Origin: Candidatus Wolfebacteria bacterium
Lineage (GTDB): Bacteria > Patescibacteriota > Minisyncoccia > UBA6257 > UBA9933
Length of the DNA stretch: 48,181 nucleotides
Assembly (NCBI GenBank): GCA_024654025.1
Contig: JANLIR010000009.1
Coordinates: 1 to 48,181 of the forward strand
Reading direction: 5' to 3'
In this document: piece by piece, positions 24,403 through 46,086 of the stretch
How the letters are laid out: every line of letters begins with the position of its first letter
Numbering within the stretch: position 1 is the first letter of the stretch
The notes under the pieces: generated by a model
Seen by the model: only the letters and a program-made list of their open reading frames with translations
Told to the model about the DNA's origin: nothing
Databases searched by the model: none
Translations under genes and position numbers: made by a program

Positions 24403-24450
24403 TAAATAACTAATAACTATTTTCGGCCCCATCGTCTAGTGGTTCGGACA

Positions 24451-24480
24451 CCCCGAAGGAAAGCGGAGCTTCCTACGGGG
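24451..24480. repeat. Palindromic hairpin insert in the outer tRNA-Glu
   Basis: CCCCGAAGGAAAGCGGAGCTTCCTACGGGG, followed by CATG. Confidence 0.8.
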
Positions 24481-24492
24481 CATGCTTGGTTC

Positions 24493-24631
24493 CTTGCCCC
24501 GTACTAAAATTTAAAATAATATATATTTGTATCTGGCCTTGTCGTCTAGTGGCCCAGGACACTTGGTTCTCATCCAAGAAACACGGGTTCGATTCCCGTC
24601 GAGGTCACAAAATTAAATTTTTAGTACGGGG
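24493..24631 (+). mobile_element. Inverted-repeat cassette carrying a complete tRNA-Glu
   Basis: CTTG + CCCCGTACTAAAATTT (24497-24512) ... AAATTTTTAGTACGGGG (24615-24631). Confidence 0.7.
24535..24607 (+). tRNA. tRNA-Glu(CTC), nested
   Basis: GGCCTTG...CGAGGTC-A cloverleaf, loop TTCTCAT; CCA not encoded. Confidence 0.92.
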
Positions 24632-24677
24632 TCATCCAAGAAACACCGGTTCGACTCCGGTTGGGGTCACCACGAAA

Positions 24678-27220: not shown

Positions 27221-27344
27221 ACAATAAGTATAAAGTATTAAGTATAAAGGAACAACAGATTTCTTGCCGCTTTCGGTTTTTTATTGTATGTTATTAGTTG
27301 TAAGTTATTGGTTGTAGGTTGATTTGGAGGGTTCGCATAGTGGT

Positions 27345-27375
27345 TCCCGCACCAAAGCTTCGCGTTGGTACGGGA
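27345..27375. repeat. Palindromic hairpin insert in the D-loop of the outer tRNA-Ser
   Basis: TCCCGCACCAAAGCTTCGCGTTGGTACGGGA, followed by CTAG. Confidence 0.75.
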
Positions 27376-27450
27376 CTAGCTAGTGCGTGCGGCTTGTTCC
27401 CGTTTTGTCCGAAGAGAAACGAGGTTACAAAACGCAATCCCGTTCATGGC

Positions 27451-27540
27451 GGAGAGGTCGCATAGTGGTCTAGTGCGCTCGCTTGGAAAGCGAGTGTGGG
27501 GTAAAACCCACCGCGAGTTCGAATCTCGCCCTCTCCGCCA
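27451..27540 (+). tRNA. tRNA-Ser(GGA), nested
   Basis: GGAGAGG...CCTCTCC-G-CCA, CTCGC-TTGGAAA-GCGAG anticodon arm. Confidence 0.94.
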
Positions 27541-27670
27541 TGTGCGGGAGAAAGCGACAATCCGTTTAAGATGGACAGAGAAGTTCTCAGCCCAGAGGCT
27601 GATCCGCCTCAGGCGGAGAATCTCGCCCTCTCCGCCAGCCAAACAAATGATTTTTTGATAAACTATATCT

Positions 27671-28201
27671 ATGACCTTACGAGAAAGAAAACTGAAAAAA
27701 GAGGAGCTTGAAGAAGTCCAATTTTTAAAAGAACGCGCAGTTGAAAATATTTTTTGGCATGCTCCGGAATATGAGTATTCGCCGAAGTCCAGTATGTGGT
27801 ATTGGACAAGTTTATTTTTGGCGCTGGTTTTGATAATTTTTGCCCTTTGGCAGAAGAATTTTTTATTCGCGTTTTTTGTATTTATTGCCGAGCTGATTGT
27901 TTTTGCTGTGGCTGATAAGCACCCGAAAATTTGGGAATTTGCAATTGACGAAAAAGGCGTTTATATAGGCAAAAATAAGTTTTATCCTTATGATCAGCTT
28001 GAGGCTTTTGATATACATATAAACGAAATCGGTCATGACCAGCTGGTTTTAAAAACGAAAAAGAAAATCTTGCCGATTGTTACTATTAATATATATAAGG
28101 AAGATCAGGAAAAAATAAAAGAATTTTTAAAAAAATATATAGCATACGAACAAATAGATATTTCGTTTGGGGATATAATCAGTAAATTGATAGGATTTTA
28201 A
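27671..28201 (+). CDS. Hypothetical two-TM protein
   Basis: SMWYWTSLFLALVLIIFALWQKNFLFAFFVFIAELIVF hydrophobic hairpin. Confidence 0.65.
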   Translation: MTLRERKLKKEELEEVQFLKERAVENIFWHAPEYEYSPKSSMWYWTSLFLALVLIIFALWQKNFLFAFFVFIAELIVFAVADKHPKIWEFAIDEKGVYIGKNKFYPYDQLEAFDIHINEIGHDQLVLKTKKKILPIVTINIYKEDQEKIKEFLKKYIAYEQIDISFGDIISKLIGF

Positions 28202-28247
28202 CATTGCCCTCGTCGTTCAACCCTTCGGCAGGCTCAGGGCAAGCGGA

Positions 28248-28277
28248 CCCCGCACCAAAACGAGTGTTGGTGCGGGG
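28248..28277. repeat. Palindromic hairpin insert in the D-loop of the outer tRNA-Arg
   Basis: CCCCGCACCAAAACGAGTGTTGGTGCGGGG, followed by CAGG. Confidence 0.8.
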
Positions 28278-28306
28278 CAGGTAGGACGCGATGGTTGTTT
28301 GGATTG

Positions 28307-28435
28307 CTTGTCCCGCACTAAAATTTAGGATATGTTTATGAAAAGTCCCCATAGCTCAACGGATAGAGTGTAGGTTTGCGGAACCTAAGATCGAGGTCCG
28401 ATTCCTCGTGGGGACGCAAAATTTTTAGTGCGGGG
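28307..28435 (+). mobile_element. Inverted-repeat cassette carrying a complete tRNA-Arg
   Basis: CTTG + TCCCGCACTAAAATTT (28311-28326) ... AAATTTTTAGTGCGGGG (28419-28435). Confidence 0.7.
28345..28416 (+). tRNA. tRNA-Arg(GCG), nested
   Basis: GTCCCCA...TGGGGAC-G, TAGGT-TTGCGGA-ACCTA anticodon arm. Confidence 0.92.
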
Positions 28436-28595
28436 CGGGTCTCGTAATTAGGGTTCGAATTTTACCCAGCACCATTACTTGTTATGGTGCTGTGGCCTCC
28501 CGAGGGCACCAGACGCGGATAATATTAAAAAACATTAGCAAGAATTACCAAGGCGTTAGAAGCTGGCGTTGATGATTTAATCAAATAATTCCACG

Positions 28596-41515: not shown

Positions 41516-42169
41516 CGTGAAACCCGATTCCGAATGAACGAACTTTAAAAATTTAATGACAAGATAATAAAGTACACCCGTAAATTCTTCAGGACTTTGC
41601 GGAGTATAAATTTCTTAAACGAGAATGAAATTAAGAGCGTATGGAGGATGCCTTGACTGAGGAAGACGATGAAGGACGTGGCGTAGCTGCGATAAGCTTC
41701 GGGGAGGTGCGTAGCAACCTTTGATCCGGAGATTTCCGAATGGGGAAACCCAATTGAGCAAACCTCAATTATCCCGATGCAAAATCGGGAAGTAAACCTG
41801 CTGAAGTGAAACATCTCAGTAAGCAGAGGAAAATAGAACAAATGTTATTCCCCTAGTAGCGGCGAGCGAAAAGGGAAGAGCCCAAACCCGTTTAAACTTT
41901 CGTAAGAAAATTTGGAAGGGGGTAGTAAGATAAAGACATTCTTGTTTGGCTAATGGTTTGAATCGCAAGATTTTTGCTGTTAGCTAAACAGGAGGAAGTT
42001 ACAAATTTGTGAGTTAGCCGAAGCCGCTGGAAAGCGACACCATAGAGGGTGATAGGCCCGTAGGCGAAAATTTACAAACTTCTTGTTTTTAATCTTGAGT
42101 ACCACGAGGAACGAACGCCTCGTGGGAAACAGCCAGTACTATCTGGTAAGGCTAAATACTTTCTCAGAT

Positions 42170-42206
<37 letters not shown>

Positions 42207-43759
42207 CAGGCCTGTTAGGCCGATGAAATAGAATCTGAAACCATATGCTTACAAGGACTCGGAGCCTTATATCAAAGCCGCAAGGTTTTGGTCGGGTGAC
42301 GAGGTGCCTATTGAAGAATGAGCCAACGAGTTTATTTGTATTGCAAGTCTAAGTTCTACGGAACGGAGGCGGAGCGAAAGCGAGTGTTAATAGCGCGTTT
42401 AGCAGTACAGTTAAGACCCGAAGCCAAGTGAGCTTGCCCTGAGCAGGATGAATCCCGAGTAAAATTGGGAGGAGGTCCGAACCGGTTGGTTGTGCAAAAC
42501 CTTCGGATGACTTGGGGTAAGAAGTGAAAAGCTAATCGAACTTGGTAATAGCTGGTTCTCTCCGAAATAGTTTTAGGACTAGCGTTTAGCAAAAACTTGT
42601 GAGGGGTAGAGCTACTGGTTGAGGAGTAAAGGGAGAAATCTCGGCTCCTCGGTCAAACTCCGAATACTCACATTAAGCCATGTATTTCACAAATAGCACC
42701 AATTTGGCGATATTTGTGAAGTACATGGTCTAAGGCTAAGCAGTCAGACTGTGGGGGCTAAGCTCCATGGTCGCGAGGGCAACAGCCCAGATCATCATCT
42801 AAGGTCCCTAAATTCATGCTAAGTGTTAAAGGTAGTAATCCGCCATTGACAGATAGGAGGTTGGCTTAGAGGTAGCCATCCTTTAAAGAGTGTGTAACAA
42901 CTCACTATTCGACGGCGGGTTGCGCCGAAAATATACCGGGGCTAAGCATGATACCGAAGATATGAATTTGGTAGAAAATTTATTTTCTGCCAAGTGGTAG
43001 GAGAGCATTTTATGCGCGCTGAAGGTCGATCCGTGAGGGCGACTGGAGTGCATAGAAGAGAGAATGTTGGCATGAGTAACCACGAATCCCGATGAGAATT
43101 CGGGACCCCGTAAATCTAAGGTTTCCTCCGCAATGGAAGTCAGCGGAGGGTTAGGCGGTCCTAAGGCAATGGCGAAAGCCGCAGCTGAAGGGTAGCTGAT
43201 TAATATTTCAGCCCTTCCTTAAAATGTGATGGAGTGACGAAGGAAAAAAGATCGAGCGCCTTAATGGTTTGGCGTTGACGGTTTTGAGAATTTCTCATCA
43301 GGAAAATCCGGTGAGATGCTTTTAACGGCAAAATTCGCATTCTGGCAAAAGTTTCGGTTTCGGCCGAAATAATTCGATTGAAGAGCCTTCCGAGAAAAAC
43401 TTCTAAACTTAGTTTTAAGGAACCCGTACCGTAAACCGACACAGGTGGATGAGGCGAGTAGCCTCAGGGGAACGAGTGATTTCTCGTTAAGGAACTCGGC
43501 AAAAAAGCGGCCGTAAGTTAGCAATAAGGCCTCCCGCTAAATTTTTTACGCAAGTAAAAGCTTAGGCGGGCGCAGTGAAAGTATCTCTGGCGACTGTTTA
43601 TCAAAGACACAGCTCCCTGCGAACTCGTAAGAGGATGTATAGGGGGTGACGCCTGACCGATGCGAGAAGGTCAACGGCGGCGGTGGTGTGTAGCAATACG
43701 CACTGCTGACTGCCTGAAGCCCTCGTCAATGTCAGCGGTAACTATAACCGTTCTAAGGT

Positions 43760-44036
43760 GAATTGATTGCCTTAGTAAAAGTCGGCCATATGCTGGAATA
43801 ACCGTGTATCCGACACTACTCATAAGAGTGACAATGTGTTCGGTGCGGTCAATCAGCAGGAAAGACTAAGAATGATAGAAAAAACGTTTTTAGTATCCTC
43901 AGAGACTATACGCCGACCCGTAGCGCATAATATGTTATGTGCTCGGAAGATATAGTCCGAACTCTATGGCGACATAGAGACCGTAGCACATAAAATTTAT
44001 GTGCTCGGCAGCGAAACAAATCGTTGTAACATTTTG
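43760..44036 (+). other. Group I intron in 23S rRNA at ~E. coli position 1931 (no ORF)
   Basis: Exon CTAAGGT pairs with IGS GCCTTAG (P1 with U.G); AATCAGCAGG, TCCTCAGAGACTATACG, AAGATATAGTCC core; ends in G. Confidence 0.92.
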
Positions 44037-44365
44037 AGCGCAATTCCTTTCCGGGTAAGTTCCGGAGCGCACGAATGGCGTAACGACCGGAGAACTGTCT
44101 CAACGAGAAGCTCGGTGAAAGTGCGAGTGCCGTGAAGACGCGGTGTACCTGTAGCGGGACGAAAAGACCCTGGAAGCTTTACTATAGCTTGGTATTGGCT
44201 TTAGGGTTTGGATACGTAGCGTAGTGGGGAGGCTTTGAAACTTTGATTTCGGTTGAAGTGGAGCCGCCAATGAAACACCCATTTTCCAAATTTTAAAATC
44301 TAACCTTGACGGAAAAAACGTCAGGGGACAGTGCCTGGTGGGTAGTTTAAATGGGGCGTTTTCCT

Positions 44366-45308
44366 TAAGGTGATAGTACTCTCCGTGCTATCACAAGGGG
44401 GACCCGTCCCGACCTAAGGTCGGGAGGGAAAAATCTGGTGTATATGCTGGAACATCCGTGGAATCTTCAAGTACCTTTGTCGAAAGGGTGAAAATCTTGA
44501 AGTGGTGTTCGATTAAAACCGAACCGGCGGACAATCAGCAGGCAACTCTGATTAAAAAGATCGGAGAAGTCCTCAGAGACTACAAGCCAGAGCGGTTATG
44601 TGTCCGCATAGCCGTATGATATAGTCCGAACTGCGTGGCGACATGCAGGTTGCGCAGCGATGCGCGACAAACCTAATTATGAGATCGAATAAAATAGAGA
44701 GTTTTAAGAAAAAATTAAAACTCAATAATAAACAACGATCTATTCTTGTTGGGCTACTTTTAGGAGATGGGCATTTAGAAACGCAAGATAACGGCAAAAC
44801 GTATCGACTAAAAGTAGAACATTCTATTAAGCAAAAAGAGTATGTAGAGTGGCTTTATGAGCAATTTAAAGACTTTGTTCGTAGTGAGCCGCGAGAAAAA
44901 AAGCACCGAGTAAGCGGTGTTACTCATATAAGTTATTTTTTCAATACATATTCGCTTGGCACTTTCCGTTTTTTTGCTCAACAATTTTATGTGGGCAGAA
45001 AAAAAGCGATTCCGAAATTGATTGGAAAGTTGCTTGATGCTCAAGCGCTTGCGATATGGTTTATGGATGACGGATCATATAAATCCGCGTATCATAAAAC
45101 TTATATCATTCATACGCTTGGATACGACAAGAATGATCTTGAACGAATAAAAGACGTGCTTCATAAAAAATTTGGAATTGAAATTGGAATTCATAAACAA
45201 TACGATAAGTGGCGAATCTATGTGAATAGTTTGTCTGCCGTAAAATTTAGAAAGTTTATCGAGCCGTATATGATTTCATCTTTGAAGTACAAATTAGGGA
45301 ACACAATG
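44366..45308 (+). other. Group I intron in 23S rRNA at ~E. coli position 2262
   Basis: Exon TTTTCCT pairs with IGS GGGAAAA; ACAATCAGCAGGCAAC, GTCCTCAGAGACTACA, GATATAGTCC; 3' terminal G before CCTAAAG. Confidence 0.92.
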
Positions 45309-45320
45309 CCTAAAGGGTAA
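44643..45320 (+). CDS. LAGLIDADG homing endonuclease
   Basis: SILVGLLLGDGHLETQ and ALAIWFMDDGSYK motifs; stop codon lies in the 3' exon. Confidence 0.93.
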   Translation: MQVAQRCATNLIMRSNKIESFKKKLKLNNKQRSILVGLLLGDGHLETQDNGKTYRLKVEHSIKQKEYVEWLYEQFKDFVRSEPREKKHRVSGVTHISYFFNTYSLGTFRFFAQQFYVGRKKAIPKLIGKLLDAQALAIWFMDDGSYKSAYHKTYIIHTLGYDKNDLERIKDVLHKKFGIEIGIHKQYDKWRIYVNSLSAVKFRKFIEPYMISSLKYKLGNTMPKG

Positions 45321-46086
45321 CGGAGGAGTTTATTAAGGTCAGCTTAGCGCGGATGGAAATCGCGCTGGACGTGTAAAGGCATAAGCTGGCTTGACTGCAA
45401 GGCTGACAAGCCGCGCAGGCGCGAAAGCGGAACTTAGTGACCCGACCATTCTTTATAGAAAGGTGGGAGACAGCGGACAAAAGCTACTCCAGGGATAACA
45501 GGCTAGTGAGATCCGAGAGTTCCTATCGACGATCTCGCTCGGCACCTCGATGTCGGCTCATCCTAGCGCGGGGCTGGAGAAGGTCCCAAGCGTTTGGCTG
45601 TTCGCCAATTAAAAGGATACGTGAGCTGGGTTCAGACCGTCGTGAGACAGGTTGGTCTCTATCTGCTACAGGCGTTGACGCTTGAAGGGAGTCGTCCCTA
45701 GTACGAGAGGACCGGGATGAACGAACCTCTGGTGTACCGGCTTTGATACCAATTGAAATGCCGGGTAGCTATGTTCGGGTGGGATAAGCGCTGAAAGCAT
45801 CTAAGCACGAAGCCCATTCCTAAGATTAGGCGTCTAGTTTGCCGCAAGGCAAACGTTAGACTCGTGGAAGATTACCACGTTGATAGGCCTCAGGTGTAAG
45901 CGCAGTAATGCGTTTAGCCGAGAGGTACTAATAAGTTTAATCATTTACTTAAGAAATTAAATTACTCCGCAGAGTCGTGGAGGATTTTACAGTGTGCCAT
46001 TCTTCAATAAGTTCAGGATGTCCTGAGTTTGTCGAAGGATATTTTGTCATTAAAATTTAAAGTCAATTAGCGCCAAAATTTTTGTT

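Follow-up and report, generated by a model that had tools for sequence, protein, structure and literature searches.

Why should an intact serine tRNA gene lie inside the anticodon loop of another, broken one? The question arises at positions 27326-27637 of the window, by which we mean the whole analysed stretch of 48,181 nucleotides from a Candidatus Wolfebacteria contig, in a genome of the Paceibacteria (hereafter G000; 630 kb in 9 contigs, with an estimated completeness of 100%). The interval is a tRNA-Ser gene broken after position 34, where a 153-nt insert holds an intact tRNA-Ser(GGA). Read on the forward strand, the outer gene begins with an acceptor strand and the start of a D arm (27326-27344), identical at 17 of 19 positions to the start of the inner gene (27451-27469) and matched by an orthologous outer 5′ half in the sister species; it is interrupted in the D loop by an unstranded palindrome with ends TCCCG and CGGGA (27345-27375), a similar palindrome lying at the same place in the sister species; and it resumes with the remainder of the D arm and the 5′ strand of the anticodon arm up to G34 (27376-27396), the break being placed against the inner loop TTGGAAA. 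The insert itself (27397-27549), lying between TTG and GAAA of the outer anticodon loop, opens with a left end made of TTCCCG, a two-part hairpin and CAATCCCG (27397-27442), followed by a left linker (27443-27450) that pairs with the right linker and lengthens the acceptor stem of the inner tRNA (inverted repeat 27438-27460/27527-27549, 87% complementary). Next come the inner tRNA-Ser(GGA) (27451-27540), the only one in the genome and called by both ARAGORN and Rfam (58.7 bits), and the right linker with the right end CGGGA (27541-27549), an end found unchanged in many nested loci. Beyond the insert, the outer gene runs with broken stems from position 35 through the variable arm to TTC of the T loop (27550-27586), is interrupted again by an unstranded 31-nt palindrome (27587-27617), a dispersed repeat with matches at C7:53821 and C4:19944 and in relatives, and closes with 20 nt (27618-27637) identical to 27521-27540, with which the outer half in the sister species also ends.

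A first-pass annotation, made from the letters alone, had proposed much of this arrangement: a tRNA-Ser 5′ part interrupted in the D loop, an intact tRNA-Ser held in 153 nt between TTG and GAAA, a 31-nt palindrome in the T loop and an exact match of the last 20 nt to the nested gene, all of which hold. Its description of inserts in all three loops needs amending: the three are present, but they do not form one system, the anticodon-loop insert being a cassette of a widespread family and the T-loop insert a separate, dispersed repeat. Folded as RNA, the entire stretch is far more stable than its shuffles (z −8.2). The outer RNA joined without its inserts, which ARAGORN does not call, folds no better than shuffles (z 0.08), whereas the inner tRNA does (z −4.4); the outer copy is therefore decayed, and the earlier suspicion of a pseudogene is borne out as probable. 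Palindromes in the T or D loops of outer tRNAs are also seen at, for example, L091, L096, L115, L117 and L166, and dispersed palindromes such as TCCGCC..GGCGGA recur between TTC and GAAT of dead outer tRNAs in many genomes.

The arrangement is not a lone curiosity: G000 holds at least six nested tRNA loci, three of them within the window (Ser-GGA, Glu-CTC and Arg-GCG) and the others on contigs C4 (Val-TAC and Thr-TGT) and C5 (Gly-CCC). At the Glu locus (24425-24672), which the first-pass annotation had rightly singled out as repeating the break after position 34, an outer 5′ half runs to C34 and has a palindrome ahead of its anticodon stem (24425-24492, forward strand, as are the features that follow); the cassette (24493-24631), with inverted-repeat ends CCCCGTACTAAAATTT and AAATTTTTAGTACGGGG, holds an inner tRNA-Glu(CTC) (24535-24608) identical to the single tRNA-Glu(CTC) of the sister species at the orthologous place; and the outer 3′ half with its CCA (24632-24672) is 87% identical to the inner 3′ half. 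The third locus in the window, a tRNA-Arg(GCG) within a tRNA-Arg(GCG) at 28206-28511, was absent from that annotation. Here the outer 5′ half, with palindromic inserts in its D loop, ends at G34 and matches an uninterrupted tRNA-Arg(GCG) of the sister species (28206-28306); the cassette (CTTGTCCCGCACTAAAATTT .. AATTTTTAGTGCGGGG; 28307-28435), with its inner gene at 28345-28417, is missing from the sister locus; and the outer 3′ half, which contains a palindrome and ends in CCGAGGGCACCA, has the same acceptor strand as the sister gene (28436-28511). A similarity search that looks for outer halves near every tRNA overlooks nested loci with foreign cargo, such as Arg-GCG. In place of the hairpin, the Glu and Arg cassettes have simple inverted repeats (CCCCGTACTAAAATTT, TCCCGCACTAAAATTT), and further insert types occur at other loci (CCCCGCACCAAAGAAAG, CCCCGTATAACAAAAAG, CCCCGTTAGA, CCCAGCACCTTTT); all of them set a tRNA on a stem. 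Among the 46 tRNA genes of G000 every anticodon is single except Met-CAT, and at each nested locus the inner gene is the sole intact copy of its anticodon.

Comparison with the sister species G001, a member of the same genus whose alignable flanks are about 88-90% identical, reveals both occupied and empty sites. Six loci have a gene that is split in one species and uninterrupted in its sister: the outer Gly-TCC, Val-CAC, Ala-CGC and Thr-GGT genes of G001 correspond to whole genes in G000 (with about 2 positions differing for Gly-TCC), and the outer Arg-GCG and Val-TAC genes of G000 correspond to whole genes in G001. The Val-TAC insertion is exact, falling between A35 and C36, and the joined outer halves give the same anticodon arm as the whole gene, with no base gained or lost. 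Single cases call for caution, as G001 is a draft in 50 contigs and at least one of its regions is shared at 100% with another bin; cases that have orthologous flanks are independent of this concern. An assembly artefact is unlikely, as nesting recurs in dozens of independent genomes and the empty sites are reciprocal. The comparison of homologous loci in sister genomes that the first-pass annotation had proposed thus comes out in favour of its tRNA reading of the outer segments: in G001 the same site is nested and its outer halves are those of a tRNA-Ser, and at other nested loci the uninterrupted counterparts equal or resemble the outer halves. Over 1251 nt, loci L089 (G015) and L102 (G001) are 100% identical although their bins belong to two genera, which probably reflects an error of binning.

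The Ser locus is nested in both species, with upstream flanks 88.6% identical over 1374 nt, and yet the two inner genes are only 76% identical. The inner Glu gene is identical in G000 and G001, with the outer absent from G001; Thr-TGT is nested in both, with identical inners and damaged outers; and in G004, of the same family, a seemingly nested Glu gene sits at a similar place and has different sequences for both inner and outer. Together, these comparisons of sequence suggest repeated rounds of nesting. Two or three successive tRNA 3′ halves follow a single inner gene at L086, L080 and L091, an arrangement that repeated nesting predicts. Over 43 isoacceptors, identity between the two species is bimodal, with 23 at 93-100% and 20 at 59-88%; of the 10 isoacceptors nested in at least one species, nesting status being judged by eye, 8 fall among the 20 diverged and 2 among the 23 conserved (Fisher p 0.028). 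Several diverged isoacceptors have orthologous flanks from which the outer halves are gone. The Ser locus (window 27240-27700; L034; L022) is also a rearrangement breakpoint, its upstream flanks being orthologous between G000 and G001 and its downstream flanks not; the downstream neighbour in G001 sits on C2 in G000.

Does the insert leave by splicing, which would fuse the outer halves into another functional tRNA-Ser and free the inner tRNA from the intron? The anticodon loop is the usual site of tRNA introns, the stem would draw the exons together, the full precursor folds strongly, and two outers are exceptions to the general decay: that of Val-TAC is perfectly paired and that of Glu nearly so, and both still fold like tRNAs. 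This good pairing had first prompted the splicing reading, which was set aside as the main one on the joined-outer test with its mismatched-half control, the missing splicing enzymes, the antisense loci and the loss of outers beside identical inners. Only 8 of 41 joined outers are called as tRNAs by ARAGORN, leaving 33 that are not, and truly matched halves (7/37) fare no better than mismatched ones with the same anticodon (48/352). At the Ser locus the outer anticodon and T stems are broken and the fold signal is absent, and outers elsewhere have been deleted, invaded by palindromes or truncated. The tRNA splicing endonuclease (PF01974) is absent from G000, with archaeal controls positive, as is an RtcB-type ligase (PF01139), found in 9 of 14 controls; the group I intron family (RF00028) matches in an Rfam scan only in the 23S gene, with none at 27326-27637. 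Loci where the tRNA lies antisense to the hairpin (Cys and some Ser-CGA) also speak against splicing, as do outers that vanish beside inners that remain identical. We thus regard the intron reading as very unlikely, and take the well-paired Val-TAC and Glu outers as recent insertions. Framing the locus as an interrupted gene, as the first-pass annotation did, was right in that the split outer is real, but left splicing possible; with most outers in relatives broken and no splicing enzyme found, replacement is the best reading of the inner gene. The 23S rRNA gene of the window (41621-45950) contains the group I intron match at 43750-43979, and an open reading frame in the same region (44643-45320) looks, by eye, like a LAGLIDADG homing endonuclease.

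If the inner gene is a replacement, where did it come from? One candidate source is the resident gene itself, copied in place as a palindrome inserted and without any exchange among genomes, and the window's Ser locus, whose inner and outer genes agree at all of 20 3′ bases and at 17 of 19 5′ bases, fits such a local duplication. At most loci, however, inner and outer are strongly different: the Arg and Val inners of G000 are respectively 68% and 80% identical to the G001 genes that match their outers. Serine cargo, moreover, is often nearer to that of other families than to that of relatives. The inner Ser gene of the window is 76% identical to that of the sister species G001, 91% to G045 and 89% to G184, and Ser-GGA cargo is similar across families elsewhere (the inner gene of G117 is 97% identical to the single gene of G045, and the pairs G184-G082 and G112-G047 each reach 93%). 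Copying in place is extremely improbable as the source of these genes.

We then turned to the insert itself. Its left end, TTCCCG followed by the hairpin and CAATCCCG, recurs in relatives of the same order: a covariance model, R1, built from 27393-27442 (the cassette left end with its CTTG target), has hits in 83 of 246 genomes from this order, and as many as nine in a single one. Across 89 aligned copies, 95.8% of cells pair and 160 cells have changed on both sides; none of 500 shuffles reaches the observed values, and slid controls fail. Because the copies were aligned by fitting them to the model, this covariation leans towards structure, although the effect size is large. Presence of the hairpin in 83 of 246 genomes and strong pair covariation over 89 sequences place the nested structure beyond chance. 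Scanning named genomes with a sequence pattern turned up 41 loci, most of them in genomes labelled as Parcubacteria lineages (Wolfe-, Portnoy-, Yanofsky-, Lipton-, Colwell-, Azam-, Jorgensen- and Sungbacteria, among others), with one locus in Roizmanbacteria and one in a bin labelled Nanoarchaeota. In a phylum-wide sample of 389 genomes just four besides G000 match R1 at E 0.001 or better, indicating that the hairpin is concentrated in this order. The exact hairpin pattern had no match in viral contigs. A conserved ribozyme was considered as the identity of the hairpin and set aside, an Rfam scan at the Ser locus giving no match for it.

Some hairpin copies have no tRNA; one of them, at L189, sits within a dead tRNA-Ser, and an intact tRNA-Ser follows immediately downstream. 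At L066, L072, L093, L227, L231 and L233 it occupies a non-tRNA context, between AAAAACTTG and AAATTGTC; G430 has three such copies 920 nt apart and G186 two copies 1055 nt apart, as if in a larger tandem unit. Scanning non-tRNA hairpin loci (L066, L072, L074, L083, L088 and others) for another RNA host gene returned tRNAs only, and three loci with the AAAAACTTG context matched no Rfam family.

Where the hairpin does accompany a tRNA, cargo and target agree. In a tally that covers the R1 hairpin subfamily, with a search set built from the Ser locus type, 52 of 113 hairpins are followed directly by an intact tRNA that points the same way: Ser-GGA (20), Ser-TGA (13), Val-TAC (6), Gly-CCC (5), Ser-CGA (4) and one each of Ala, Thr, Arg and Ser-GCT. 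The joined outer anticodon loop equals the inner loop at 6-7 of 7 positions in 41 of the 55 loci whose right end could be placed, as against 19% with inner loops of other anticodons (some serine loops being one base apart) and 3 of 55 in the opposite orientation. The break falls mostly after position 34 or 35, the exceptions being some Ser-CGA genes, broken in the T loop, and genes of the Ala-CGC type, broken in the anticodon stem; it lies just downstream of a short DNA motif, mostly CTTG, AATG, ATTG or TTTG; the orientation of the element tracks this upstream motif (mostly NTTG or AATG). Cassettes start with (C)CCCG and finish with CGGG(A/G), and those with different cargo have linkers in common (CTTAAAGC..GCTTTGTGCGGGA). 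Insert ends vary, with extra bases such as CAAG at one end in some loci of other insert types, and given this variation a single precise mechanism is not established.

Such agreement between cargo and target could also arise if no transposase were involved, and imported nested loci instead recombined with the resident gene via their outer halves, spreading within an isoacceptor. This route would account directly for the isoacceptor match, the orientation and the constancy of the site, as well as for the different inner cargo of G000 and G001 at one orthologous nested site. Against it, the homology arms are short (20-40 nt), the same hairpin occurs away from tRNA genes and without a tRNA, and cassettes for different anticodons share linkers; the hairpins outside tRNA genes and the common linkers require another way of moving at least at times. 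As the sole explanation, homing by recombination is therefore unlikely, and homologous recombination through the outer halves is retained as an alternative or additional route of spread.

The reading that we favour, and consider probable, is that short mobile elements, each a hairpin bearing a tRNA, enter the anticodon loop of a matching tRNA gene, destroy it and supply its substitute. The 153-nt insert would be one such cassette, an intact tRNA gene on an inverted-repeat stem, which would enter the anticodon loop of a resident gene with the same anticodon, presumably by transposition. Insertion would kill the resident gene, and the cargo tRNA, lying in the same direction of transcription and perhaps transcribed from the old, outer promoter, would take over. 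Only insertions whose cargo matches the target would be expected to survive, a putative protein-free form of addiction; the outer halves would then decay through further palindrome insertions, deletions and substitutions until the newcomer alone remained, itself open to fresh invasion. Neither excision of a cassette nor an intermediate of transposition was seen. As to what might move the cassette, the Y1 transposase (PF01797) has no match in G000 or G001; across the order, hairpin and Y1 transposase occur in one genome in 34 cases against 24.3 expected (p 0.0035), a modest excess that is uncorrected for kinship.

More broadly, and with somewhat less assurance, we favour the view that these are a class of element with a tRNA as its only cargo, which breaks the single gene for an anticodon and, by supplying the substitute, makes itself impossible to lose, and that repeated invasion has renewed much of the tRNA complement of Paceibacteria, both among sister species and from family to family. 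tRNA genes are taken to be slow and vertically inherited. If confirmed, the cassettes would represent a new route of essential-gene replacement and of genetic addiction without a protein, in bacteria that are abundant and hardly cultured, and would caution that tRNA trees, tRNA counts and intron calls may mislead in such genomes.

The open-access literature, covered for nesting of tRNAs, introns in the tRNA genes of Patescibacteria, palindromic elements within tRNAs and replacement of tRNA genes, yielded no account of nested tRNA genes of this kind. Archaeal tRNA introns have been reported to transpose between tRNA genes (summarised in PMC10714607), a tRNA-Thr gene of the archaeon Caldiarchaeum is disrupted by a mobile element (PMC3293823), and rRNA-gene insertions in the bacteria considered here have been studied without mention of tRNA (PMC11270868).

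How, then, do the cassettes compare with known systems? Like tRNA introns, whether the protein-spliced introns of archaea and eukaryotes or the group I introns of bacteria, they break a tRNA gene in the anticodon loop; unlike these, they hold a whole tRNA, the outer exons mostly decay, and neither splicing enzymes nor a group I core was found. With the split and permuted tRNA genes of archaea and algae they share a gene in pieces and complementary flanks, but here the pieces surround another intact tRNA and are not maintained. There is a likeness in form to MITEs derived from IS200/IS605, REP sequences and other short palindromic repeats, of which the Rickettsia palindromic elements are an example: the cassette is short and palindromic, and a covarying subterminal hairpin lies beside a fixed short target (mostly CTTG, AATG, ATTG or TTTG). 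At the cleanest site, Val-TAC, there is no target duplication, while some loci of other insert types have an extra CAAG. It differs from such MITEs in carrying a tRNA that matches its target and, judged from its sequence, is probably functional, and in residing in a genome, G000, without a Y1 transposase. Finally, as with integrative elements that target tRNA genes, the cassette enters a tRNA gene and the cell keeps a working tRNA. Tyrosine-recombinase islands usually come with genes and an integrase and, of the tRNA, bring just the part that is missing; the Ser insert has no integrase or cargo genes between the tRNA parts, its 153 nt holding only a tRNA and stems, and in cassettes of 129-153 nt what is brought is a complete, often foreign tRNA and nothing else.
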